Part shown: positions 11,322-24,672 of the stretch, piece after piece
Position numbering within the stretch: position 1 is the first letter of the stretch
Layout: each line of letters starts with the position of its first letter
Source of the DNA: Candidatus Aenigmatarchaeota archaeon
GTDB lineage: Archaea; Aenigmatarchaeota; Aenigmatarchaeia; QMZP01; QMZT01
Length of the DNA stretch: 44,746 bases
Reading direction: 5' to 3'
Assembly: GCA_016932735.1 (NCBI GenBank)
Contig: JAFGCI010000010.1
Location: 1-44,746 of the forward strand
Notes under the pieces: model-generated
Told to the model about the DNA's origin: nothing
The model's database searches: none
The model's input: the letters and a program-made list of their open reading frames with translations, nothing else
Made by a program: the position numbers and the translations under genes

Positions 11322-11424
11322 CTTACACTAATTAATCAAGCAGAAACAATGTAAAAGCATTATTAACTGAGCAAGCTTAAATTTCTTTTTTGAAACTTTT
11401 AGTGACTATTGAGTTGTTAATATA

Positions 11425-11474
11425 TTTTTAAATACTCAATCCAATTATGTAACATAGTAGGTTAAAGTAGGTGA
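11425..11474 (+). promoter_or_regulatory. TATA box and RBS of the propeller operon
   Basis: TTTTTAAAT (11425-11433) is placed for a transcription start near 11455. AGGTGA (11469-11474) matches the archaeal anti-Shine-Dalgarno and sits 4 nt before the P1 ATG. No other promoter-like gap exists downstream until the end of the ten-gene array, so one transcript may cover it all. Confidence 0.5.
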
Positions 11475-11478
11475 ATTT

Positions 11479-12861
11479 ATGGATTTCGATTTCGGTTCAG
11501 ACTTCAGCGGTTTTGGTGACTTCCAGGCTTCTTCGGAAAACCTTGAGATGAAGAAAACAAGGCAGTATGACAGAATCTGGCGTGTCTCTGTAGGAGGAAG
11601 CATCTGTGGGAAGCCCCTTCTGCTCGATGGGATTATATATTTCGGGGCAATGGACGGGTTCCTTTATGCCGTGGATGCTTCCACGAATAAGGTATTGTGG
11701 AAATTCAGGGCAGACGGATTGTTCCTTGATTCATCTCCTATGCACTTCTCGGGAAAAATATATATCGGTTCTTTCGACAATTTCATGTATTCTGTTGATG
11801 CAAAAACAGGAAAGCTTGTATGGAGATTACGTGCAGGCGCTGAGATAAACTCAACTCCCTTCGTAGATGAGACCGGAGTCTATTTCGGCTGCAAGGACGG
11901 TTTCGTTTATGCTCTTCATCCGGAAACCGGAAATGAATTGTGGAGATTCAACACTGGAGACGTCGTAGCCTCTTCACCAGCCAAGGTTGACGGAAGGATA
12001 CTTGTAGGTTCTTTCAGCTCTTTCTTATATTGCCTGAATGCGAGCAACGGAAAAGAGATATGGAGGTTTAAAACAGGCGGCGAGATTGAGAATGATTATA
12101 CAATGACCACGCACAAGGGAATCGTCTATTTTGCCTCATTTGACAACTGCCTTTATGCTGTAAGCATTGAAAACGGCAGGGAGTTGTGGAGGTTTAAAAC
12201 AGGAAAATACGGGAACTGCAGTATCCCTACTATCGCTGATGATGTCATTTATTACAGTTCGAGAGACGGCATCCTGTATGCTCTCACCATGAGCGGTCAG
12301 GAGCTTTGGAGGTTCAAAACCGGCAAGGAGTGCATTGAAAAAGGACCCGTTGCACATAACGGCAGGGTATATCTGTGTTCAGGAGACAACAACCTTTACT
12401 GTCTCGATATCCATGGAAATGAACTCTGGAGATTCCAGACCGGAGGAGGCGTTTTTACTTCAGGCGTCATATTCAATGGAACTTTATACTTCGGTTCATG
12501 GGACTGCAGGCTGTATGGCATAGACCTCGAAACAGGAGAGGAGAGAACAAGGATACAGACCAGCACCAACAAGCAGGCATATCTTCCAGATGCTTTCGAG
12601 ATGTTCAAGCTGGAAGTCAGAAAGACTGCTGATAATTTCGAAACGGCAGGCTCTGATGACAAATATGCAGGCTCATTCCAGAATTTGAACCTGAGCGAGT
12701 ATGGAGCAAAATCTGAGTATGTTACAAAGTCCGAATACACCCACAAATCGGAGTATACGACTGATTTCGTTATATTTGAAGGGGCGATGACTATCGGAAA
12801 CGAGGTCATCTATATGCACAGAAACATGTTTCCGTCTTTAACTTCGAAGGAGATGATATGA
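11479..12861 (+). CDS. P1: eight-bladed PQQ-like beta-propeller protein with KSEY tail
   Basis: First of ten tandem paralogues; function unknown. 460 residues, no signal peptide or TM segment, so cytosolic. Residues 1-40 form a conserved cap (MDFDF, GFGDF, then a KKTRQYDRIW strand that probably closes the ring). Eight PQQ-like repeats of 40 residues follow (about 41-362), each ending in a G-x-E-L-W-R-F-K-T-G type motif. Blade 5 ends in TGKYGN, blade 6 carries SSRDGILYAL, blade 8 carries W341-D342-C343. A linker with FKLEVRKTADNFET leads to KSEY at 411, 417 and 423. The last 30 residues (VIFEGAM and a spacer ending FPSLTSKEMI) read through the next gene's leader. PQQ binding is not implied; the Trp motifs are structural. 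Confidence 0.9.
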   Translation: MDFDFGSDFSGFGDFQASSENLEMKKTRQYDRIWRVSVGGSICGKPLLLDGIIYFGAMDGFLYAVDASTNKVLWKFRADGLFLDSSPMHFSGKIYIGSFDNFMYSVDAKTGKLVWRLRAGAEINSTPFVDETGVYFGCKDGFVYALHPETGNELWRFNTGDVVASSPAKVDGRILVGSFSSFLYCLNASNGKEIWRFKTGGEIENDYTMTTHKGIVYFASFDNCLYAVSIENGRELWRFKTGKYGNCSIPTIADDVIYYSSRDGILYALTMSGQELWRFKTGKECIEKGPVAHNGRVYLCSGDNNLYCLDIHGNELWRFQTGGGVFTSGVIFNGTLYFGSWDCRLYGIDLETGEERTRIQTSTNKQAYLPDAFEMFKLEVRKTADNFETAGSDDKYAGSFQNLNLSEYGAKSEYVTKSEYTHKSEYTTDFVIFEGAMTIGNEVIYMHRNMFPSLTSKEMI

Positions 12862-14327
12862 TGGATTTTGATTTCGGTTTCGAAGCTAAACTGGAGGAGA
12901 TCGAGGTAAAAAGGGCAAAGAGATTCGAAAGGCTCTGGCAGGTCGGCGAAGGTGGAAGCATATCATACACGAAACTGAAAGGCGATGTCCTGTATTTCGG
13001 GGCGGCCGATTCATATTTTTATGCAGTCGGCATAAAGACCGGAAAAGAACTCTGGAGATTCAAAGCCGGAGGCATCATAACAGGCAGAGCTGAGATTGCA
13101 GATGAAAGGATATTCTTTACGACTTTCGACAAGACGTTGCATGCTCTTGATATAACGACGGGGAAAGAAATCTGGAGATTCAGATCGCAGGGCATGATGT
13201 TTGACGGACCTACATACTCAGAGGGCTTTCTTGTGATAGGAACGAAAGGCGGGTTCGTTCATGCAGTGGACGCTGCAACGGGGAGGGAGATATGGTCCTT
13301 CCGGACGGGAGATGACATATTATCCGCTTCGACAATACATGAAGGAAGGGTTTTCATAGGATCCGCCGATTCATATTTCTATTGCATCGACCTTTTATCC
13401 GGCAAGGAAGTATGGAGATTCAAGACAGGCGATCTCATACACAATGATATACAATGCCCAATATCTGGAAATATGATATTCTTTTCATCATTCGACAATT
13501 TCATGTATTGCCTCGACTGGAAAAATGGTAACGAACTATGGAGATTCAAGACAGGTAAATACGGCATGTCGGAGCCTCCTCTTCTATATAAAGATGTATT
13601 GTACCAAGGAACAAGAGACGGCATTCTATTTGCAATAAGTACTGAAGGTCGCGAAGTCTGGAGATTCACTACCGGAAAAACCCTTACAGGGCCTTCTATC
13701 TTCCGGGACAGAATTTATTTCGGCTCCGAAGACGGTTATTTACGTTGTATAGATACCGATGGAAAAGAAATATGGAGATTTGCAATAGACGGAATAATGT
13801 GGGACATACCTTCAATGTATGAAAACAAAATCATATTCGGAACGTTCAATTGCAGGGCATATGCACTTGACGCTGATACCGGAGAAGAACTCTGGAACTT
13901 TACCACAAGCAATCCCAATCCATCACCAGTTCCCCCGCCTCTCGACTCATTCGAAGCCGAAGTCAGGAAATCAATGGATAATTTTGAAACGGGAAGCGGG
14001 CAAGAAAACAACAGATATTCCGGAGCCGGTGAAACTATAAACCTCAGCGATTATAGAGATAAATCTGAGTATGTTACAAAGTCCGAATACACCCACAAAT
14101 CAGAGTACACGACAGACTTTGTGATCTTGGACGAGCGTTTACTTGCAAGTTCAAGACATCATGAGCGAACGTTTACATGTGAACTCGTGAGGTTGCACGG
14201 AACGTGCACACATTGCACAGGATGTGCATATGTATTCGAAGGAGCGATTAACTTTGAGGTGAATGAATGGACTTCAGTTTTGATGGATTCGATGGCTTCA
14301 CAGCCAAGACAGATAATATTGAAATAA
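12861..14327 (+). CDS. P2: propeller paralogue with a 36-codon insert in its tail
   Basis: 488 residues, the longest of the set. It opens MDFDFGFEAKLEEIEVKRAKRFERLW and has the eight blades, TGKYGM, TRDGILFAI and a blade-8 FNC in place of the usual W/F-D-C. The three KSEY hexads are nearly identical in DNA to those of P1. Between TTDFVI and FEGAI an extra 108 nt (14127-14234) is inserted in frame; it encodes a His/Cys-rich stretch with CTHCTGC and is built of short palindromes. The final 61 nt overlap P3 out of frame. I chose ATG 12861 over 12858 because GGAG then lies 8 nt upstream, as for the other genes. Confidence 0.88.
   Translation: MDFDFGFEAKLEEIEVKRAKRFERLWQVGEGGSISYTKLKGDVLYFGAADSYFYAVGIKTGKELWRFKAGGIITGRAEIADERIFFTTFDKTLHALDITTGKEIWRFRSQGMMFDGPTYSEGFLVIGTKGGFVHAVDAATGREIWSFRTGDDILSASTIHEGRVFIGSADSYFYCIDLLSGKEVWRFKTGDLIHNDIQCPISGNMIFFSSFDNFMYCLDWKNGNELWRFKTGKYGMSEPPLLYKDVLYQGTRDGILFAISTEGREVWRFTTGKTLTGPSIFRDRIYFGSEDGYLRCIDTDGKEIWRFAIDGIMWDIPSMYENKIIFGTFNCRAYALDADTGEELWNFTTSNPNPSPVPPPLDSFEAEVRKSMDNFETGSGQENNRYSGAGETINLSDYRDKSEYVTKSEYTHKSEYTTDFVILDERLLASSRHHERTFTCELVRLHGTCTHCTGCAYVFEGAINFEVNEWTSVLMDSMASQPRQIILK
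14127..14234. repeat. 108-nt palindrome-rich insert in P2
   Basis: Relative to the other paralogues, exactly 36 codons are inserted here. The insert contains ACTTGCAAGT (14141-14150, perfect palindrome), an imperfect palindrome around ACATGT (14171-14184), TGCACG-GAA-CGTGCA (14194-14208) and TGCACA-GGA-TGTGCA (14214-14228). The GAA tri-loop resembles the hairpins at 309-360. It may be a small mobile hairpin element or an RNA structure placed before the P3 start. Confidence 0.6.
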
Positions 14328-15640
14328 AGAAAACCAAGAAATACGACAGGATATGGAGAACCGGAAACGGAGGAAGCATTGATAACAATCCTCTTCTTTT
14401 TGAAGGCATTATATATTTCGGAGCTCTCGATGGGTATTTTTATGCGGTTTCTGAGAATACAGGCAAAATCTTATGGCAAATAAAACTTGCAGATAAGGTG
14501 AATGGCTCTTCGCCCGCAATTCATAAAAGAAGCATCTTCATAGGTTGTTACGATTATGGTCTTTACAAAATTAACATAGATACAAGAGAAGTCGAATGGA
14601 TATTCAAGACCAATGGAGAGGTGTTTAGCAGTCCCTTTGTCCATGATGGGAAAGTTTATTTCGGTTCAAGGGATTCCTATTTTTATTGCATTGATGCGGT
14701 ATCAGGACAGGAACAATGGAGATTCAAGACGGGCGCATGCATTGCAACTGCCCCTTTAGTTGAGGATGGAAAAACATATTTTGGTTCATACGATCATTCC
14801 TTCTACTGTCTTAATGCAGATAATGGCACGGAACTATGGCGTTTTCAGACCGGTAACGATATAATCAGCAATTTTCCCTTTGTAACGTACAAAGGCATAA
14901 TATATTTCGGATCATTTGACGGCTATATTTATGCTGTAAATAAGGATACAGGAATTGAGAATTGGAGGTTTAAAGCAGGCAAATATGGAGTTGCGGGAGG
15001 CATTCCTTACATACATGATAACGTCTTGTATTTTTCCTCCAGAGATGGAGATTTTTATGCAATGACGCCTGAAGGGAATATTTTATGGCAATTCAGGGCG
15101 GACGGGCCGATAATTGCTCAGTTACCAAGAATACACAATGGTAAAATCATGTTTGGCTCTGAAGATGGAAATATGTACTTTTTGGATCTTTACGGAAATG
15201 AGGTCGGAAGATTCAAGACGGACGGTCTTCTCTTTGGAAAATTCCTTTTAAACAATGGTAGAATATATTTCGGATCATTTGACTGCCGTTTCTACTGTGT
15301 CGATGTCGATACAATGTCAGAAGTTTGGAGAACAACAACATCAACAACTTCCAAGGCGCATATTCCGCCTGTCAATGAAGTCTTCGAGGCTTCGATAAAA
15401 ACGTCAACCGATACGATAGATTCTGTCGGTGAAGTTGAAGACAAGTACTCGGCATCTTCAAACACTCTGAACCTTTCAGATTATGGCGAGAAGTCGGAAT
15501 ATGTGACGAAATCTGAATACACGCACAAGTCGGAGTACACGACGGATTTCGTGATTTTCGAGGGAGCAATGACTTTAGGAAACGGAGGCGTCTACATTCC
15601 CGTAAATATATTCCCCTCACTGGCCCCGGAGATGATATGA
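14267..15640 (+). CDS. P3: propeller paralogue
   Basis: 457 residues starting MDFSFDGFDGF and KKTKKYDRIWRT. Eight blades; blade 5 ends in AGKYGV, blade 6 has SSRDGDFYAM, blade 8 has SFDCRFYCVD. The tail linker reads FEASIKTSTDTIDS and leads to NLSDYGEKSEYVTKSEY, then the third hexad. Like P1 it ends with a spacer (FEGAM ... FPSLAPEMI) that finishes ATGATATGATGG, so the P1/P2 and P3/P4 junctions are homologous. GAGGTGA 4 nt before the ATG serves as RBS. The first 61 nt overlap the end of P2 in another frame. Confidence 0.88.
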   Translation: MDFSFDGFDGFTAKTDNIEIKKTKKYDRIWRTGNGGSIDNNPLLFEGIIYFGALDGYFYAVSENTGKILWQIKLADKVNGSSPAIHKRSIFIGCYDYGLYKINIDTREVEWIFKTNGEVFSSPFVHDGKVYFGSRDSYFYCIDAVSGQEQWRFKTGACIATAPLVEDGKTYFGSYDHSFYCLNADNGTELWRFQTGNDIISNFPFVTYKGIIYFGSFDGYIYAVNKDTGIENWRFKAGKYGVAGGIPYIHDNVLYFSSRDGDFYAMTPEGNILWQFRADGPIIAQLPRIHNGKIMFGSEDGNMYFLDLYGNEVGRFKTDGLLFGKFLLNNGRIYFGSFDCRFYCVDVDTMSEVWRTTTSTTSKAHIPPVNEVFEASIKTSTDTIDSVGEVEDKYSASSNTLNLSDYGEKSEYVTKSEYTHKSEYTTDFVIFEGAMTLGNGGVYIPVNIFPSLAPEMI

Positions 15641-16998
15641 TGGATTTTTCTTTTGAAGGATTCGGCGATTTCGAGGCGAAAACTGAAAACATAGAAATCA
15701 GGAAGGTCGGAAGGTTCGACAGAATGTGGGAGGTCGGTTCCGGAGGAAGCATAAACAACGTTCCTCTGGTTGTCGGAGACATCGCATATTTCGGAGCAAT
15801 GGATGGATATCTCTATGCACTTGATCTTGATAAAAAAGAAGAGTTGTGGAAATTCAGATGCCTTGACGGTATTGAAGAATCAAGTCCACAGCATTCTGAA
15901 GGAATAATATATTTTGGAAGTTTTGATTCATATTTTTACGCAGTTAAGGCTGATTCAGGAGAACTTGTATGGAAGTATAAGGCACAAAACATGATTGATG
16001 TCGCATCATTTGTTCATAAGGACGGGGTCTTATTCGGAGATAAGGACGGATATCTTTACTGTCTTGACAAAAAATCAGGGGAACTGAGATGGACGTTTAA
16101 GACCGGAGGACCTGTAATATCAGCTCCTTCTGCAGTGGAGAACTTCGCCCTGACGGGTTCAGCAGACGGATATTTATATTGCATCAATTTTGAGACGGGT
16201 TCTGAAATCTGGAGATTCAAGACAGGAGCGGAAATCCATAACGACAACAATCTTACGATTGTAGATGGTATTGTTTATTTTGCATCATTTGATAACTTCC
16301 TATACGCGCTTGATGTAAGGAGCGGATCTGAAATCTGGAAATTCAAGACCGGAAAATACGGAAACGGTGGCTCTCCGACATACCATGAAGGAAGACTATA
16401 CCATGGAGTCAGAGATGGTTTTGTTTATTGCATTGATGCGAGCAAAGGCACTGAAATATGGAGGTTCAGAACCGGGTCTGATGATGTTCTGGATACAACA
16501 CCTTTGGTATATAACGGAAACGTCTATTTTGGCTCAGGAGATACATACATTTATTGTGTGAGCCTTTCCGGAGAACTTGTATGGAAAGTTAAAACAGACG
16601 GAATTGTCTGCACGTCCCCAAAGGTCTGGAATGGAAAAATTGTTATTGGATCGTTTGATTGTCATCTGTATGTTTTAGACTGGAATACAGGGGACATATA
16701 CTGGAGATTTTCAACATCAACCCTTTCCCAGTCTCCGGTTCCGCCACCATTTGAGAACTTTAAGGTCGAAATAAAAAAGACAACCGAATTCGGTGAGAAC
16801 ATAAGTGATTCTGATAATTATAAAAACAAGATTGAAAACCTGAATCTTGGTGATTATTCTAAATCTGAGTATTCTGTTAAAAGCGAATATGTCCATAAAT
16901 CAGAGTATACAACAGAGTTTGTATTTTTTGAAGGAGTTATGAAGAGTGAGCAGTTATGGAATTTGATTTCAATACCAACCTTGTGGATTTTGAAGTAG
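15640..16998 (+). CDS. P4: propeller paralogue
   Basis: 452 residues starting MDFSFEGFGDFEAKTENIEIRK and GRFDRMW. Eight blades with TGKYGN, a GVRDGFVYC variant in blade 6 and SFDCHLYVLD in blade 8. The linker is shorter (FKVEIKKTTEFGENIS) and the tail reads SKSEYSVKSEY followed by VHKSEYTTEF, a variant of the consensus that keeps all three KSEY units. An ATG 3 nt upstream overlaps the P3 stop by 4 nt. Its last 43 nt overlap P5 out of frame. Confidence 0.87.
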   Translation: MDFSFEGFGDFEAKTENIEIRKVGRFDRMWEVGSGGSINNVPLVVGDIAYFGAMDGYLYALDLDKKEELWKFRCLDGIEESSPQHSEGIIYFGSFDSYFYAVKADSGELVWKYKAQNMIDVASFVHKDGVLFGDKDGYLYCLDKKSGELRWTFKTGGPVISAPSAVENFALTGSADGYLYCINFETGSEIWRFKTGAEIHNDNNLTIVDGIVYFASFDNFLYALDVRSGSEIWKFKTGKYGNGGSPTYHEGRLYHGVRDGFVYCIDASKGTEIWRFRTGSDDVLDTTPLVYNGNVYFGSGDTYIYCVSLSGELVWKVKTDGIVCTSPKVWNGKIVIGSFDCHLYVLDWNTGDIYWRFSTSTLSQSPVPPPFENFKVEIKKTTEFGENISDSDNYKNKIENLNLGDYSKSEYSVKSEYVHKSEYTTEFVFFEGVMKSEQLWNLISIPTLWILK

Positions 16999-18302
16999 AA
17001 AAACCGAAATTTCACACGGTCAACTGGAATGTCACAGCAGGAGGAAGCATTTCAGCCGGAGGGTTAATCAAAGACGGAGTCGTATATTTCGGTGCATGTG
17101 ATGAAAGGGTTTATGCTGTTGACTGCAATACAGGAAAGAGCATATGGACTTTCAAAGGCAGAGGACTCTTCGTTGAGGCGCGACCGTGCATCCACGAAGA
17201 CCATCTTTACATAGGGTCCCATGGCGGGCATTTCTACAAAATTGATATACAAACAGGAAATCCTGTATGGGAATTCAAAGCTACCGACAGAATAACAGGA
17301 GCGTCTTTTGTTCATGACGGCGTTGTTTACTTTTCTTCTTTTGATAATTATGTATATGCTCTGAACGAGAAAACCGGAACAGAACTATGGAGATTCAAAA
17401 CGGGCGGCTGGAATGGTTCTTGCCCCCAGATTCATGAAGGAGTTCTTTACTTCGGTTCGGGGGATGGCAATTTCTATGCACTGAATCCAAAAAGCGGGAC
17501 TGAAATATGGAGATTTAAGACAGGAGGAGCTGTTTTCTACTACAAACCACTTCCAATTTATAATAATGTTATATTCTTCCCTTCAACAGACCATAACTTC
17601 TATGCTATTAACACGAAGACAGGAAAAGAGGTCTGGAGGTTTAAGATGGGAGCAAGAACAGAGACAACGCCTGTCATTGATGATGTTTTAATTTACTTCG
17701 GTTCTCATGACCACTATTTCTATGCGCTTAATATACTGACAGGGAAAGAGGTCTGGAGGTTTGAGGCGGGCGGAAGAATAGGAGACCAGAAAGCTCTCAT
17801 AGTGAATGACAGTATTTATTTCGGCGGTTCCGATGACGGCTTTATCTATTGTCTAAACAAAGAAAACGGTCAGCTTATATGGAAGTTCAGAACAGGCGGC
17901 GATATCTGGAGCGACGCTTTATATCATGAAGAGACCATTATTTTCGGCTCGTTTGACTGCTATTTGTACTCGCTTGATGCAAAGACCGGACAAGAAATCT
18001 GGAGGTTCGAAACAGCGAACAGGAAAATGTCCAATCTTACCATCAGCGAAGAGGTCGTTATAAAGAATGAAGAGACCGAACAGGTTTTGAATGTCGATGC
18101 GGAAGAACCGCACTATAAAATAAAAAATGAAGATATTCTCCTTGGAGAATACGGAACAAAATCCGAATATGTAACTAAGAGCGAGTATACGCATAAATCC
18201 GAATATACAACCGATATGGTAATTTTTAATGGAGTGATGGAATGGATTTCGACTTTGAAGGATTCGGAAATTTCAATGTCCAGAGCGAGAATCTGGAAGT
18301 AA
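16956..18302 (+). CDS. P5: divergent propeller paralogue
   Basis: 448 residues and the least conserved member. The cap reads MEFDFNTNLVDFEVEKPKFH and lacks the K-K-F-D-R-x-W strand motif. Blade 5 lacks KYG, and blade 6 has SHDHYFYALN instead of a RDG motif. The linker lacks the IKKS helix and instead carries an acidic stretch (KNEETEQVLNVDAEEPHYK). Even so, blade 8 keeps SFDCYLYSLD and the tail keeps all three KSEY hexads unchanged. It may be a specialised subunit. The last 61 nt overlap P6. Confidence 0.86.
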   Translation: MEFDFNTNLVDFEVEKPKFHTVNWNVTAGGSISAGGLIKDGVVYFGACDERVYAVDCNTGKSIWTFKGRGLFVEARPCIHEDHLYIGSHGGHFYKIDIQTGNPVWEFKATDRITGASFVHDGVVYFSSFDNYVYALNEKTGTELWRFKTGGWNGSCPQIHEGVLYFGSGDGNFYALNPKSGTEIWRFKTGGAVFYYKPLPIYNNVIFFPSTDHNFYAINTKTGKEVWRFKMGARTETTPVIDDVLIYFGSHDHYFYALNILTGKEVWRFEAGGRIGDQKALIVNDSIYFGGSDDGFIYCLNKENGQLIWKFRTGGDIWSDALYHEETIIFGSFDCYLYSLDAKTGQEIWRFETANRKMSNLTISEEVVIKNEETEQVLNVDAEEPHYKIKNEDILLGEYGTKSEYVTKSEYTHKSEYTTDMVIFNGVMEWISTLKDSEISMSRARIWK

Positions 18303-19591
18303 GGAAGACGAAGAAGTTCGACAGGCTTTTCCGCATAAAGGGCGGAGGCAGCGTCAGCACTATACCACTTGTCCATAAAGGAGTCGCATATTTCGGGGCA
18401 ACTGACGGAATATTCTATGCAGTTGATATCAGTTCCGGAAAAGAAGTCTGGAGGATAAAAACCGACGGACTTTTCATGGAATCATTCCCCACTCTGCATG
18501 GGAACACTATCGTTTTCGGTACATATGACTGTAATGTTTATGCAATCGATGTTTCTGAAAGAAAGATAAAATGGAAATGCAAGACAGGAGGAAAGATAAT
18601 CAGTTCTCCATGCGTCCATGAAGATTTCGTTTACATAGGTTCGCAGGACGGGTTCGCATATTCTATAGACATTAATACCGGACAAATAAAATGGAGATTC
18701 AATACAGGCGACTGGGTCGTATCATATCCGAACGTCTCTTGCGGAAAGGTATATTTCGGCTCATTCAACGGTTTTATGTTTGCGATTGACGCCGAAACGG
18801 GCCATGAAGTATGGAGATTCAAAACCGGAGCAGAGATTTATAATGCGACACAGTTCCTGATAAGAGAAGGAAAAATATACGTTCCTTCACTTGATAATCA
18901 TCTGTATATTCTGAATTCGGAAACGGGCTCAGAGATAAAAAGAATCCGCCTGGGAAAATACGGTCCCGCATGCTCACCAGTCTATCACGACGGCGTCCTA
19001 TATCAGGAAACAAGAGACGGGGACCTTTATGCTTTAACACCGGACGGACAGGAGTTATGGAGATTCCGGACAAGCGAAATCATAGGAGTGATAATACCAT
19101 TCAAAGACAGGATTTATTTCGGCTCTGCCGACAACAACTTCTACTGTGTCGATAAGAGCGGAAACGAGCTTTGGAGGTTCAGGACGCAGGGCTATGCATG
19201 GTATATAACAATGCATGAAGGTTTGTTTTACCTTGGATCATGGGACTGTCACTTATACTGTGTGGATATGGAAGGCAATGAAATCTGGAGATTTGCAACG
19301 AGCACCCCGCAGCCGGCTGAAATACCTCCCGCTTTCGAAGGCTGGGAAGCCGAGATAAAGAAATCGGTGCAGGAAGCAGAAACAATAGCGGACGAATCGA
19401 GATATTCGTCTTTGGCGGAGTCACTTAATCTTTCTGAGTATGGAGCAAAATCCGAGTATGTGACTAAGTCAGAGTATACAAACAAATCAGAATACACGAC
19501 TGATATGGTAATTTTTAATGGAGCGATAGAATGGATTTCGACTTTGAAGGATTCGGGGACTTTAGCGTTCAGCTCGAAAATCTTGAAATGA
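18242..19591 (+). CDS. P6: propeller paralogue
   Basis: 449 residues starting MDFDFEGFGNFNVQSENLEV then KTKKFDRLF. Eight blades; blade 5 ends LGKYGPAC, blade 6 has ETRDGDLYAL, blade 8 SWDCHLYCVD. The linker is WEAEIKKSVQEAETIADESR and the tail reads KSEYVTKSEYTNKSEYTTDM. GGAG stands 7 nt before the ATG, inside the FNG codons of P5. The region around this start (18213-18267) is almost the same as that around the P7 start, with two differences in 55 nt. It overlaps P7 by 61 nt. Confidence 0.87.
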   Translation: MDFDFEGFGNFNVQSENLEVRKTKKFDRLFRIKGGGSVSTIPLVHKGVAYFGATDGIFYAVDISSGKEVWRIKTDGLFMESFPTLHGNTIVFGTYDCNVYAIDVSERKIKWKCKTGGKIISSPCVHEDFVYIGSQDGFAYSIDINTGQIKWRFNTGDWVVSYPNVSCGKVYFGSFNGFMFAIDAETGHEVWRFKTGAEIYNATQFLIREGKIYVPSLDNHLYILNSETGSEIKRIRLGKYGPACSPVYHDGVLYQETRDGDLYALTPDGQELWRFRTSEIIGVIIPFKDRIYFGSADNNFYCVDKSGNELWRFRTQGYAWYITMHEGLFYLGSWDCHLYCVDMEGNEIWRFATSTPQPAEIPPAFEGWEAEIKKSVQEAETIADESRYSSLAESLNLSEYGAKSEYVTKSEYTNKSEYTTDMVIFNGAIEWISTLKDSGTLAFSSKILK

Positions 19592-20877
19592 AAAAACTCA
19601 AGAAATTCGATAGGATGTGGTCTGTGAAGAAGGGCGGTTCAGTCTGGTCTATACCTCTTGTAGAAGACGGTGTAGTCTATTTCGGAGCATATGACAACAA
19701 GATTTATGCTGTCAATGAGAACAGCGGAGAAGAGATATGGAGAATAGAAACCGGCGGACCGATTGTTGCAAATTCGCCAAGAATACACAAACAAAAACTC
19801 TTTATGGGCTCCAATGATGGTTTTTTCTATTGCATTGATAAGAATGGAAAAGTTCTTTGGAAATTCAAGACTGGCGGGGAGATTGCATGCAGCACACCGG
19901 CATTTCTCGATAATATTGTTTTCTTCGGTTCAAAGGACTGCAACGTATTTGCTCTCGATATTGTAACAGGGAGAGAAGTCTGGAGATTCAAGGCAGGAGA
20001 TACTATAATGTCTTCCCCGACTGTATGGAACTCCAGATTGTTTATAGGTTCATATGATAGTCATATGTATTGCCTTGATGCAAAAACTGGCCGGGAAGTC
20101 TGGAGAAAGAAACTTGGGGCTGAAGTTGTTAATGAATGCCCCTTTGTTATTTACAACGATGTTCTTTACTTCTCTTCGTTTGATAATTTTTTGTATGCTG
20201 TCCGGGCGCCGGGCGGGCAGGAAGTATGGAGGTTCAGGACAGGACAGTATGGAAACTCGTTTGCAAGCGTGATATACAAGGATGTAATATATCACGCATC
20301 CAGAGACGGTGTTCTCTTTGCATTGACTCTTGATGGAAAGGAGTTGTGGAGAAAGAATTTTGACGGATGTATGTATTCTACTCTTGTCGCTTATAATGAG
20401 CATTTATATTTCGGAGTTGAGGACGGCTTTATTTACTGCGTTGATATGATGGGAAATGTTGAATGGAAGTTCAGGACAGGACAAAACCTTACAATGTGCC
20501 CCACATTATCAAGCAATAAACTTTATTTCGGGGCATGGGACTGCCATGTCTATTGCCTGGATATGGAAGGCAATGAAATCTGGAGGTTTACAACAAGTAG
20601 TACAGCGCCTGCTGAAATGTCAAGCCCTTACAGCATTTTCAAAATGGAAATAAAGAAGACAATCGATGAGTCTGAAACAATTGATAGTGAATCGAAATAT
20701 TCGGACAAAACGGAAAACATAAATCTCAGCGAGTATGGAACAAAATCTGAATATGTGACAAAATCCGAATATACACATAAGTCTGAGTATACGACTGACT
20801 TCGTGATATTTGAAGGAGCGAATGAATGGAATTCGAATTCGGTGATTTCGGGGCCAAAGTCGAAACTATTGAAGTAA
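19531..20877 (+). CDS. P7: propeller paralogue
   Basis: 448 residues starting MDFDFEGFGDFSVQLENLEM and KLKKFDRMW. Eight blades; blade 5 ends TGQYGN (Gln for Lys), blade 6 has ASRDGVLFAL, blade 8 has AWDCHVYCLD. Two blades end in V-W-R-K-K or L-W-R-K-N rather than W-R-F. The linker reads FKMEIKKTIDESETIDSESK and the tail carries three standard KSEY hexads followed by TTDFVIFEGANEW. Its last 52 nt overlap P8; the GGAG for P8 lies within the FEGA codons. Confidence 0.87.
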   Translation: MDFDFEGFGDFSVQLENLEMKKLKKFDRMWSVKKGGSVWSIPLVEDGVVYFGAYDNKIYAVNENSGEEIWRIETGGPIVANSPRIHKQKLFMGSNDGFFYCIDKNGKVLWKFKTGGEIACSTPAFLDNIVFFGSKDCNVFALDIVTGREVWRFKAGDTIMSSPTVWNSRLFIGSYDSHMYCLDAKTGREVWRKKLGAEVVNECPFVIYNDVLYFSSFDNFLYAVRAPGGQEVWRFRTGQYGNSFASVIYKDVIYHASRDGVLFALTLDGKELWRKNFDGCMYSTLVAYNEHLYFGVEDGFIYCVDMMGNVEWKFRTGQNLTMCPTLSSNKLYFGAWDCHVYCLDMEGNEIWRFTTSSTAPAEMSSPYSIFKMEIKKTIDESETIDSESKYSDKTENINLSEYGTKSEYVTKSEYTHKSEYTTDFVIFEGANEWNSNSVISGPKSKLLK

Positions 20878-22154
20878 AGCAGACAAAGGATTTCGACAGG
20901 CATAAGAGAATCGGAGCAGGCGGGAGTATAGGGTACCATGTACTTCATGATGGCATCGTCTATTTCGGCGCGATGGATAGCAGATTCTATGCAGTTGATG
21001 CTGATACCGGAAAGAAATTATGGATATTCAAAACCGATGACAGAATTGTCGGAAAGGCCTCGATCCATGAAGCCAAAATCTATTTTGGCTCATTGGATTC
21101 ATGCATGTACTGCCTTGAGCGCCACACAGGAAAAGAGATTTGGAGAACTAATACAGGAGCAGGCGTATTTGCAAGCTCTATTATTTACCAGGGCAGGCTT
21201 TACGTCGGAAACTTCAACGGATATGTCTCCTGCATCGACATAGAAACAGGAGACATCATATGGCAGTTCAAGACGGGAAAGGACATACTCGCAACGCCTT
21301 CAGCATTTGACGGAAAGATTGTGATAGGGTCGTTCGACCATAATCTATACTGTCTTGATGCAAAGTCGGGAAATGAAGTCTGGAGATTCAAAACAGGGAG
21401 CGAGGTACATAATGACGGAGCTCCTCTTATCCACAACAACAGAATATACTTCACAAGTTTTGATAATTTCTTATATTGTCTGGATTTGAACGGAACTGAA
21501 ATATGGAGGTTCAGGACAGGAAAATACGGCAATGCATGCTGTCCTGCAGAATACAATGGCGTCCTTTACCATGGATCAAGAGACGGAATCCTTTACGCTC
21601 TGGCAATAGACGGAAAGGAAATCTGGAGATTCAGATGCGCAGGCATGATAGAATCGCCTCCTTTTTTCCATGAAAATAGAATATATGTATGTTCTGAAGA
21701 AGGAAATATGTATTGTCTTGATTTGAACGGAAATGAATTGTGGAGGTTCGAGTTCAGCGCAAGCTCATATGATAGCCCGTCCTTCTACAAAGGAAAACTT
21801 TTTGTCGCATCATGGGACTGCCATTTATACGCTATCGATATCAACACACATGAGGAGGCTTTCCGCGTTTCGACAAGCACGAACAAGATTGCAGAGGCGC
21901 CTCCTGCAAACGAGTCCTTTGAGGCGGTTGTCAGGAAATCTGCTGATACGATTGATACAATCTCATCTGATGAAAGATATTCAGGCATGAGTCAGACTCT
22001 GGATCTTTCCGACTACGGCGGAAAATCAGAGTATGTGACGAAGTCTGAGTATACACATAAGTCTGAATATACAACGGATTTCGTACTATTTGAAGGAGTG
22101 ATGGAATGGACTTTTCAGACAGCTTCAACATCTCTGTTGAAGATATCGAAATGA
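20826..22154 (+). CDS. P8: propeller paralogue
   Basis: 442 residues starting MEFEFGDFGAKVETIEVKQ, with TKDFDRHKRI at the closing strand. Eight blades; blade 5 TGKYGNAC, blade 6 GSRDGILYAL, blade 8 SWDCHLYAID. The linker FEAVVRKSADTIDTISSDER is closest to those of P3 and P10. Three KSEY hexads follow a DLSDYGG segment. The last 49 nt overlap P9. Confidence 0.87.
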   Translation: MEFEFGDFGAKVETIEVKQTKDFDRHKRIGAGGSIGYHVLHDGIVYFGAMDSRFYAVDADTGKKLWIFKTDDRIVGKASIHEAKIYFGSLDSCMYCLERHTGKEIWRTNTGAGVFASSIIYQGRLYVGNFNGYVSCIDIETGDIIWQFKTGKDILATPSAFDGKIVIGSFDHNLYCLDAKSGNEVWRFKTGSEVHNDGAPLIHNNRIYFTSFDNFLYCLDLNGTEIWRFRTGKYGNACCPAEYNGVLYHGSRDGILYALAIDGKEIWRFRCAGMIESPPFFHENRIYVCSEEGNMYCLDLNGNELWRFEFSASSYDSPSFYKGKLFVASWDCHLYAIDINTHEEAFRVSTSTNKIAEAPPANESFEAVVRKSADTIDTISSDERYSGMSQTLDLSDYGGKSEYVTKSEYTHKSEYTTDFVLFEGVMEWTFQTASTSLLKISK

Positions 22155-23440
22155 GGAAGACGAAGAAATTCGAGAGGATGTGGCACATATCAAGAGGCGG
22201 AAGCATCCTTTGCATAATTCGGGTAGATGAGGATACATTATATTTTACTGACATGGACGGGTACATTTATGCAGTAGGTACAGACGGGGCAGAGAAATGG
22301 AAGTTCAGGATGAGGAATGTATCGGAGGCGAGCCCTTCGGTATACAGAGACATGATATTTGCGGCTGGGCATGATTCTTATGTATATGCGCTGGACAAGA
22401 AAACGGGCAGCAAAATCTGGGAATACAAGACAGGAGACCAGATATTCAGCGTCCCGTGCGGAGGCGGAGATCTTGTTTTTGTCGGCTCCAAGGACGGCTT
22501 TCTCTATGCATTAAAATATGATACAGGTGATTTAGTCTGGAGATTTTCAGCTGGAGACTGGATTGCATCAGCACCCGCTTATCATGACGGTAAAGTCTTT
22601 GTGGGAAGCTTCGATAATTATCTTTACTGCATTGATGCAAAATCCGGAAAAGAGATTTGGAGATTTAAGACCGGAGGCGAAGTATTCAACACTTCGCCAT
22701 TGGTTGTTTATGAGAATATCATATTTTGTCCTTCAATGGATAATTTCCTTTACGCCATAGACACACAGACCGGTCATGAAATCTGGAGATTCAAGACAGG
22801 AAAATACGGTAATGCTGGAACTCCGCTTGTTTACAACAATACGATTTTCTACGGCTGTCGTGACGGCATAATGTATGCATTATCGATGGATGGCAGGGAA
22901 TTGTGGCGATTCACTGTAAAGAGCGAGGAAATACTTGACAAGACTCCTGTGGCGAATGATGGCAGGCTGTACTTCGGGGCAGGAGACGGCGCTTTCTATT
23001 GCCTCGATATAAGAAGCGGACATGAGATCTGGAGATTCCAGACAGGTCAAAAGATATACAGCCAGCCTGCGGTAAAGGATGGAGTTCTCTATATAGGCTC
23101 ATGGGACTGCAACCTGTATGCCGTTGACGGAAACACCGGCGAAGAACTGTGGAGGTTTGCAACCGCCAACAGGCAGGTATCGCAGATTCCTCCCGCCTAC
23201 GGAGCATGGGAAGCGGTCATCAAAAGGTCCGCGGAAGAAATAGAGACTATATCTGAAATGGACAGGTATGCCGTTTCCGCCGGCAATCTGAATTTATCAG
23301 AATATGGGACGAAGTCGGAGTATGCGGGAAAGAGTGAATATGCAGGGAAATCGGAGTACACCACTGATCTTGTGATATTTGATTGGGAGAATGTATTATG
23401 GACTTTTCAGACAGCTTCAACATCTCCGTTGAAGACATAG
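22106..23440 (+). CDS. P9: propeller paralogue
   Basis: 444 residues starting MDFSDSFNISVEDIEMRK and TKKFERMW. Eight blades; blade 5 TGKYGN, blade 6 GCRDGIMYAL, blade 8 SWDCNLYAVD. The tail is the simplest version of the repeat (KSEYAG twice, then KSEYTTDL), so KSEY itself is what is kept and the two spacer residues vary. The start region is almost the same in DNA as the start of P10. The last 43 nt overlap P10. Confidence 0.87.
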   Translation: MDFSDSFNISVEDIEMRKTKKFERMWHISRGGSILCIIRVDEDTLYFTDMDGYIYAVGTDGAEKWKFRMRNVSEASPSVYRDMIFAAGHDSYVYALDKKTGSKIWEYKTGDQIFSVPCGGGDLVFVGSKDGFLYALKYDTGDLVWRFSAGDWIASAPAYHDGKVFVGSFDNYLYCIDAKSGKEIWRFKTGGEVFNTSPLVVYENIIFCPSMDNFLYAIDTQTGHEIWRFKTGKYGNAGTPLVYNNTIFYGCRDGIMYALSMDGRELWRFTVKSEEILDKTPVANDGRLYFGAGDGAFYCLDIRSGHEIWRFQTGQKIYSQPAVKDGVLYIGSWDCNLYAVDGNTGEELWRFATANRQVSQIPPAYGAWEAVIKRSAEEIETISEMDRYAVSAGNLNLSEYGTKSEYAGKSEYAGKSEYTTDLVIFDWENVLWTFQTASTSPLKT

Positions 23441-24672
23441 AAATAAAGAAAACCGGAAAATTCGACAGGATATGGAAGATAACAGATGGAGGAGGAATAG
23501 ACCAGTCTGCAATTATAGTTGACGGAAAGCTTTATTTTGGATCGGCAGACTGGAATTTCTATTGTCTTGATTCAGCTACAGGTAAGGAGTTGTGGAGATT
23601 CAGGGCCAATGGCATGTTTATAATAGCGTCGCCTTTATGCATAGATAATATTATTTATATCGGAAATTATGACGGGAATATGTATGCACTTGAAAAGGAC
23701 ACAGGAAAACTTATATGGTATTTTAGAACAAACGATTCGATAGGCACAAGGGCAGGGCATTATAAAAATAAAATATATTTTGGCTCAAAGGACGGTTTCA
23801 TATACTGCCTTGATTCGCTGAAAGGAAACTTAATATGGAAGTCAGCTACAGGAGAGCCCATTGTATCATCTCCATCATTTTTCAAAGGAAAACTTTACAT
23901 GGGATCATTTAACGGCTTCTTTTACTGTCTTGATGCCGAAACGGGAAAAGAGGTCTGGAGACTTAAAGCGGGCGCTGAAATATATAATGACAGCCCATTC
24001 CCGATAAGAGAGGGCATAATTTACATCACATCTTTTGACAATTATCTGTATGCAGTAGATACTGAGAACGGAAAGATATTGTGGAGATTTAAGACCGGAA
24101 AATATGGAATTGCGGGGCCGTGTGAAATATATAATGAAACCATTTTCCAGCCTTCAAGAGATGGCATACTCTACGCTTTGACTATGGAAGGCCACGAAAA
24201 ATGGAGATTCAGGACAAACGAGCTTGGAGTCATTGTAAGTGTCACGGTCCGTGAGGAAAGAATTTATTTCGGGTCAGAAACAAGGGATTTTTACTGTATT
24301 GATATTAACGGTAAAGAGATATGGCGTTTACAGACAGAAGGAGGGATATTCTGCGGCAAAGTCCCTTTCCATAATGGAAAGCTGTATTTTGGTTCTTACG
24401 ACTGCCATATGTACTGCGTCGATGCGGAAAGCGGCGAATTGTTATGGAGATTTGCCTCAAGTGTACAGAAAAGGAATGAGTACCCGCCTCTTACAGAAGG
24501 GTTTGAGGCCGTAATCAAGAAGTCTGCGGAAACGATTGATACAATTGTCTCGGATGACAAATATTCCTCTCTTAATAATGCTTTTAATCTTTCCGATTAT
24601 GGGGAAAAATCCGAGTACATGACAAAGAGTGAATATACTAATAAATCAGAATACTCTGCAGATTTTAATTAA
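23398..24672 (+). CDS. P10: last propeller paralogue, natural tail end
   Basis: 424 residues from ATG 23398 (GGAG 8 nt upstream; an in-frame ATG at 23383 is less likely). It starts MDFSDSFNISVEDIEIKK and TGKFDRIW. Eight blades; TGKYGI, PSRDGILYAL and SYDCHMYCVD are kept. It stops directly after the third hexad (NKSEYSADFN). As no gene follows, this shows the functional tail ends near DF and that the VIFEGAM extension of the others comes from reading through the next gene's ribosome binding site. Its stop abuts the convergent pseudouridine synthase gene with no spacing. Confidence 0.88.
   Translation: MDFSDSFNISVEDIEIKKTGKFDRIWKITDGGGIDQSAIIVDGKLYFGSADWNFYCLDSATGKELWRFRANGMFIIASPLCIDNIIYIGNYDGNMYALEKDTGKLIWYFRTNDSIGTRAGHYKNKIYFGSKDGFIYCLDSLKGNLIWKSATGEPIVSSPSFFKGKLYMGSFNGFFYCLDAETGKEVWRLKAGAEIYNDSPFPIREGIIYITSFDNYLYAVDTENGKILWRFKTGKYGIAGPCEIYNETIFQPSRDGILYALTMEGHEKWRFRTNELGVIVSVTVREERIYFGSETRDFYCIDINGKEIWRLQTEGGIFCGKVPFHNGKLYFGSYDCHMYCVDAESGELLWRFASSVQKRNEYPPLTEGFEAVIKKSAETIDTIVSDDKYSSLNNAFNLSDYGEKSEYMTKSEYTNKSEYSADFN

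Follow-up and report, generated by a model that had tools for sequence, protein, structure and literature searches.

A ten-gene array of soluble eight-bladed propellers with a common four-tyrosine tail in Candidatus Aenigmatarchaeota: candidate binding modules of differing specificity

The DNA analyzed here (44,746 nucleotides, hereafter the window) is one whole contig (C5) of G000, a Candidatus Aenigmatarchaeota (DPANN) genome of 1.18 Mb that is divided among 11 contigs and is 91% complete. Ten consecutive open reading frames, P1 to P10, with products of 424-489 amino acids, occupy positions 11479-24672 of the plus strand. An A/V-type ATP synthase operon, encoded on the minus strand, lies on one side of the array and a gene for an RluA-type pseudouridine synthase on the other. 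A sequence-only reading of the window had described ten consecutive same-strand propeller genes with no other gene inside the array, and both statements were borne out. Pairwise identity between the ten products is 35-49%. The features of the array are as follows.

11415..11478, plus strand: putative archaeal promoter and leader, AT-rich, with TATA-like TATATTTTTAAATAC and an AGGTGA Shine-Dalgarno motif, inferred by eye
11479..12861, plus strand: P1, 460 aa, eight-bladed propeller; KSEY tail at 12709-12756; orthologues in G137, G140, G143 and G144
12858..14327, plus strand: P2, 488-489 aa, ATGATG start at 12858/12861; tail at 14061-14108; orthologue in G142 (68% propeller identity)
14267..15640, plus strand: P3, 457 aa; tail at 15491-15538; orthologues in G137, G140, G142 and G143
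15637..16998, plus strand: P4, 452-453 aa; tail at 16861-16908; orthologues in G138, G140, G142 and G143
16956..18302, plus strand: P5, 448 aa, the most divergent; tail at 18159-18206; eight blades and a disordered tail predicted by AlphaFold2; orthologues in G138 and G140
18214..18302, plus strand: P5/P6 junction, given as an example; GGAG ribosome-binding site inside tail codons, P6 start codon (ATG) in the -1 frame and 61 nt ahead of the P5 stop
18242..19591, plus strand: P6, 449 aa; tail at 19448-19495; the orthologue is a solitary gene in G139
19531..20877, plus strand: P7, 448 aa; tail at 20743-20790; nearest relative in the G137 array
20826..22154, plus strand: P8, 442 aa; tail at 22023-22070
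22106..23440, plus strand: P9, 444 aa; tail at 23312-23359
23398..24672, plus strand: P10, 424 aa from ATG 23398, probably its start rather than TTG 23383, which is also open; tail at 24607-24654; eight blades and a disordered tail predicted by AlphaFold2; blade-8 Cys336

Overlaps between neighbouring genes measure 4 to 61 nt. Any additional promoter would thus be located inside coding sequence, and a single transcript for P1-P10 is plausible; the operon-like organization proposed earlier is supported to this extent. In arrays of the window genome's taxonomic family (f1; f3-f5 are other families with propellers) the tail runs into an extension whose codons contain the Shine-Dalgarno motif for the gene that follows (as in TTTGAAGGAGTGATGGAATGG between P8 and P9). 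Residues of P1-P9 beyond KSEYTTDFVIFEG are mostly out-of-frame read-through into the following gene, and P10, the last gene, stops at KSEYSADFN without a coupling extension. All 35 long overlaps (43-73 nt) in f1 arrays place the next ATG in the -1 frame, and a Shine-Dalgarno motif precedes most of these starts. In the other families adjacent copies are mostly separated by gaps of some 16-54 nt lacking the motif. Programmed -1 frameshifting into poly-propellers was considered and rejected: a slippery heptamer was found in just 5 of 37 junctions and none is conserved, so that overlapping initiation driven by Shine-Dalgarno motifs is the simple reading. That they all share the -1 phase is most readily explained if the junctions descend from a single one. 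A palindrome-rich insert of about 110 nt (window 14112-14225; fold z = -2.1) follows the P2 tail and occurs at none of the other junctions; G000:C11:139365 is the site of a 36-nt relative (89%).

All ten proteins scored above the Pfam gathering thresholds for PF13570 (199-241 bits, cut-off 133), the top-scoring family for most copies, and for PF13360 (114-270 bits, cut-off 27.6). Eight Trp-docking motifs are spaced about 40 residues apart. AlphaFold2 folds both P10 and P5 into eight-bladed propellers with a blade pLDDT of about 97; the last ~50-80 residues are disordered in the models, and tail pLDDT falls below 50. The array proteins are thus predicted to be eight-bladed, in agreement with the PQQ-like plan read from the sequence. 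Top fold matches in the PDB were designed PQQ-like propellers and BamB, which is among the best natural matches and has the same fold and Trp-docking repeats (PF13360, TIGR03300). BamB, however, is an exported single-copy lipoprotein without a Tyr tail or blade-8 Cys, whereas the array proteins have MDF/MEF N-termini with no signal and reach at most 174 bits with TIGR03300 (cut-off 285). Propellers of the Beta-prop_ACSF4 (PF13570) and AfsK type have the same kind of repeat, joined in one protein to an adenylation or a kinase domain. The array proteins, in contrast, stand alone with their Tyr tail; no kinase domain match was found in them, and the AfsK model score was at most 195 bits (cut-off 1300). 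The repeat type is also that of PQQ-dependent dehydrogenases (TIGR03075, TIGR03074), which are exported enzymes and whose models gave at most 133 and 59 bits against cut-offs of 480 and 833. All specific NCBIfam models tested (BamB, PQQ dehydrogenases, AfsK) fall far below cut-off for P1-P10. A role in defence was rejected, as no PADLOC model of a known anti-phage defence system matched P1, P5 or P10. The earlier statement that the array matches no described system is supported. Titles and abstracts that we searched contained no account of such propellers in Aenigmatarchaeota or DPANN.

No recognisable signal peptide was found in any family member examined, whereas outside homologues mostly begin with a signal-like or lipoprotein-like N-terminus. 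The 21 copies in the G000 genome carry 63 N-glycosylation sequons, against 56.4 expected by composition; an exported PQQ-propeller protein of the same genome, at the end of contig C11, has 57 in 1058 aa, against 18.7 expected. Family copies contain 1.86 Cys per 100 aa. The N-termini and the background level of sequons support the cytosolic location proposed earlier. The exported sequon-dense propeller runs off the contig end at L023:8307-11480, and a similar piece begins at L024:1-2103; the end of C11 and the start of C7 may be adjacent in the genome.

The array itself is real, as had been read, but it makes up only part of the set: another 11 copies are scattered over five other contigs of G000, making 21 in all, and the family takes up about 2.4% of the genome. 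Within f1, eight of nine genomes have copies, with 5 to 24 matches each (a count that includes fragments and, in G000, also the separate exported protein); the remaining one, 92% complete, has none. A search for other arrays showed that they recur in these relatives with 5-11 copies: 11 in G140 and five each in G143, G142 and G137. The propeller family is nearly confined to one order. In a sample of the phylum 39 of 156 genomes matched at 1e-60. Of these, 33 come from the window's order (33 of 41 sampled), and the remaining six belong to two further families of the class. Two genomes labelled otherwise, G139 (JAADIF, 'Ca. Micrarchaeota' M_MetaBat.29) and G129 (JAHIVW, 'Nanoarchaeota'), are placed in the window's phylum by kinship codes. 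A contig labelled 'Thermotogae' (L046, QNAP01000240) is probably misbinned, as it codes for a family-like protein that has the blade-8 Cys motif.

Inspection of flanking genes, which the earlier reading had suggested, gave no constant partner. Clustering of neighbours returned mixed housekeeping genes (NrdD, FEN1, ThrRS, eRF1, T2SSE, TrmB), and a conserved partner gene next door was therefore rejected. Recurrent neighbours are the anaerobic ribonucleotide reductase (in f5), FEN1, ThrRS, T2SSE ATPases and TrmB- or AsnC-type regulators. In one orthologue pair of 77% identity, one copy lies in an NAD biosynthesis operon (L021) and the other beside unrelated genes. In f5 (L166, L168) propeller genes lie between nrdD and a radical-SAM gene resembling its activase, and nrdD beside a propeller was seen again in further f5 genomes. 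At L018:1949-6492 a solitary propeller gene heads an operon that also encodes a short pilin-like protein and an ATPase related to those of type II/IV secretion. In several genomes (G000, G109, G110 and G137 for the solitary genes) helix-turn-helix regulators of the TrmB or AsnC type directly adjoin propeller genes, most of which are solitary, at the following sites.

L019:7732-8505, L020:6765-7541, L161:8606-9364, L164:6903-7655 and L207:6550-7704: TrmB-/AsnC-type regulators
L016:9008-10036 and L158:6971-7966: further TrmB-/AsnC-type regulators

A tree of the propeller domains alone grouped array members with their counterparts from other genera and not with their array neighbours. It requires 17 changes for the 21 G000 copies, with clusters corresponding to orthologue groups and not to genomes; in f1 there are sixteen cross-genome groups at 55% identity or above. 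Such orthologue groups spanning genera indicate that the paralogues are old. Close orthologues have dN of about 0.11-0.16 and dS, where estimable, of about 0.8-1.8, values that point to purifying selection.

Sites that separate paralogues were located by counting blade positions from the docking Trp and subtracting, for each offset, paralogue-pair identity from orthologue-pair identity. In f1 the difference peaks at offsets +7 to +10, the D-A loop and start of strand A (at +9, 0.67 for orthologues and 0.14 for paralogues), with a second peak at -16, in the B-C loop (0.73 and 0.30). The A-B and C-D loops vary among orthologues and paralogues alike. The D-A and B-C loops of a four-stranded antiparallel blade share one face, so that the specificity pattern is confined to one side of the propeller; this assignment of loops to faces rests on blade topology. 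In f1 the fraction of identical residues at top-face positions is 0.69 between orthologues and 0.25 between paralogues; at bottom-loop positions it is 0.36 and 0.19. Orthologue identity is higher at the top than at the bottom by 0.33 in f1 (0.25-0.41 on bootstrapping over orthologue groups) and by 0.17 in f3-f5 (0.09-0.25); since the position classes were picked after the per-offset result in f1, f3-f5 are the independent test. Paralogue variability of top and bottom positions is nearly equal. We infer that the one-face pattern reflects ligand binding, and of the two options put forward from the sequence, binders of differing specificity are favoured by these figures. The other, a hetero-oligomer of ten related subunits, is not needed: arrays comprise 5 to 11 genes in differing order, some orthologues stand alone elsewhere and the 92%-complete f1 genome does without copies.

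The C-terminal tails behave differently from the propellers. Four tyrosines are present in 138 of 149 tails. In f1 and f3 they are six residues apart, in f5 mostly 6-8; the six-residue spacing was imposed by the search pattern in f1 but not in f3. The tail reads SEYxxKSEYVTKSEYTHKSEYTTD in G000, SDYHVTSEYSxxSEYKQKSDYD in G137, G138, G142 and G143, and DIADYGTFSGTYIDTxKTDYLGRKKKGY in G117/G131. A pattern of paired KSEY motifs matched the G000 genome 32 times, every time in a propeller gene, and the reversed control gave no match. The common tail noted earlier is indeed present in all ten array proteins; the periodicity of its tyrosines and its genome-specific identity had been missed. The closest tail of an array member belonged to its own genome in 36.8 of 51 cases; for propellers the figure was 11 of 51. 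Among pairs matched for propeller identity (~40%), tails are 61% identical within and 51% between genomes in f1, and 50% and 30% in f5. Same-genome likeness of this size was reached in 0 of 2000 label shuffles in f1 and in f5 and in 63 of 2000 in f3, where the effect is weak; the shuffles ignore phylogeny.

Synonymous codon differences among the ten tails of the array amount to 0.57, against 0.53 expected from the propellers. Synonymous sites being saturated, recent gene conversion of tails was rejected except for P1 and P2, whose tails still have about 40 identical nucleotides in common. Since tail codons are synonymously as diverged as the propellers, constraint at the amino-acid level, and not fresh conversion, keeps the tails alike. 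This fits selection for one common tail per genome, though old gene conversion or descent could account for part of the sharing. Phosphotyrosine or FHA-based signalling through the tail was rejected, as neither a dedicated kinase nor a reader was seen in G000: no FHA domain was found in this genome, and its one Pkinase-like open reading frame is short (235 aa) and has a similar counterpart in G141, which has no propellers.

A further feature common to the family is a cysteine in blade 8 (residue 336 of P10), present in 148 of 152 members; its motif occurs in 2 of 53 outside homologues. It sits in a loop, at a position occupied in other blades mostly by Gly, Asn or other residues. A blade table, inspected for cofactor and metal ligands like those of PQQ dehydrogenases, revealed no off-pattern invariant acid; this cysteine and the partly conserved Arg254 alone stand out, the remaining strongly conserved residues being repeat-structural.

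The reading that we prefer, with a probability of roughly 0.45, is that the propellers are interchangeable binding modules of differing specificity whose common tail docks on one shared putative partner. The array would encode soluble cytosolic receptor-like proteins, each binding its own ligand, protein or metabolite, through the variable face formed by the D-A and B-C loops. The flexible tail with its four regularly spaced tyrosines presumably binds a partner, one common to all paralogues of the cell, and the blade-8 Cys, on the side of the variable face, may serve a shared step. Such an architecture would resemble interchangeable substrate receptors on one hub, as in the WD40 receptors of SCF/CRL ligases (e.g. 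Fbw7, which is among the fold-search matches), where many propellers of differing specificity use one docking element. Those receptors belong to another superfamily, and the array proteins have no F-box; the comparison is a working analogy and not a claim of membership. Against the hub model, the neighbour search gave no partner gene, with contexts differing even between 77%-identical orthologues; tail sharing could partly be old gene conversion or descent, the f3 effect being weak; and the variable loops are placed on one face from blade topology.

Other explanations account for parts of the data. Were the propellers structural, co-assembling into a shell, filament or condensate with the tyrosine-repeat tails as a shared polymerisation element, the overlapping, probably co-transcribed genes and the close likeness of all tails would be expected. 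We consider such a scaffold unlikely, because copy number ranges from 0 to 21 among related genomes, array composition and order differ, solitary copies bear the same kind of tail, AlphaFold2 gives the tail no order and the residues kept among orthologues are confined to one face. Cytosolic sensors or buffers of metabolites, with one small molecule per propeller funnel and a tail only for stability or localisation, would agree with the variable funnel-face residues, with the copy inside the NAD biosynthesis operon and with the regulators adjoining solitary copies in four genomes. This proposal leaves the likeness of tails within genomes and their difference between genomes unexplained, and the neighbours differ between orthologues; we consider it unlikely as well.

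The PQQ-type repeats and the near-invariant Cys could also belong to cytosolic quinoprotein-like or Cys-dependent enzymes. Catalysis of this kind is very unlikely given the dehydrogenase scores (at most 133 of 480 bits) and the repeat-structural nature of nearly all strongly conserved residues, the blade-8 Cys and Arg254 excepted. The presence of many paralogues in a DPANN genome of small size, together with a shared C-terminal tail that could be an export tag, would suit effectors leaving by an unrecognised route and acting on the host cell of a presumed symbiont. This we regard as highly improbable: signal peptides are absent, sequons are not enriched, unlike in the exported propeller, the Cys content is 1.86 per 100 aa and orthologues evolve slowly.

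Old paralogues, divergence on one face and one tail per genome are what a design with many receptors and one hub predicts. In the fullest form of the preferred reading, which we put forward tentatively and with more doubt than belief, the genes would represent a modular recognition system, so far undescribed, that belongs to a single Aenigmatarchaeota order. Each cell would have as many as about 20 receptors that diverged long ago, and a four-tyrosine tail specific to the lineage would connect all of them to one common machine co-evolving with the tails. In logic this would be an archaeal counterpart of the interchangeable substrate receptors of eukaryotes. A lineage known for minimal gene content spends about one fortieth of a genome on a single cytosolic family, and what is annotated as a 'PQQ-binding-like repeat protein' becomes a system open to testing. 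Should a partner common to the tails exist, it would indicate a new regulatory, quality-control or assembly machine in DPANN archaea.
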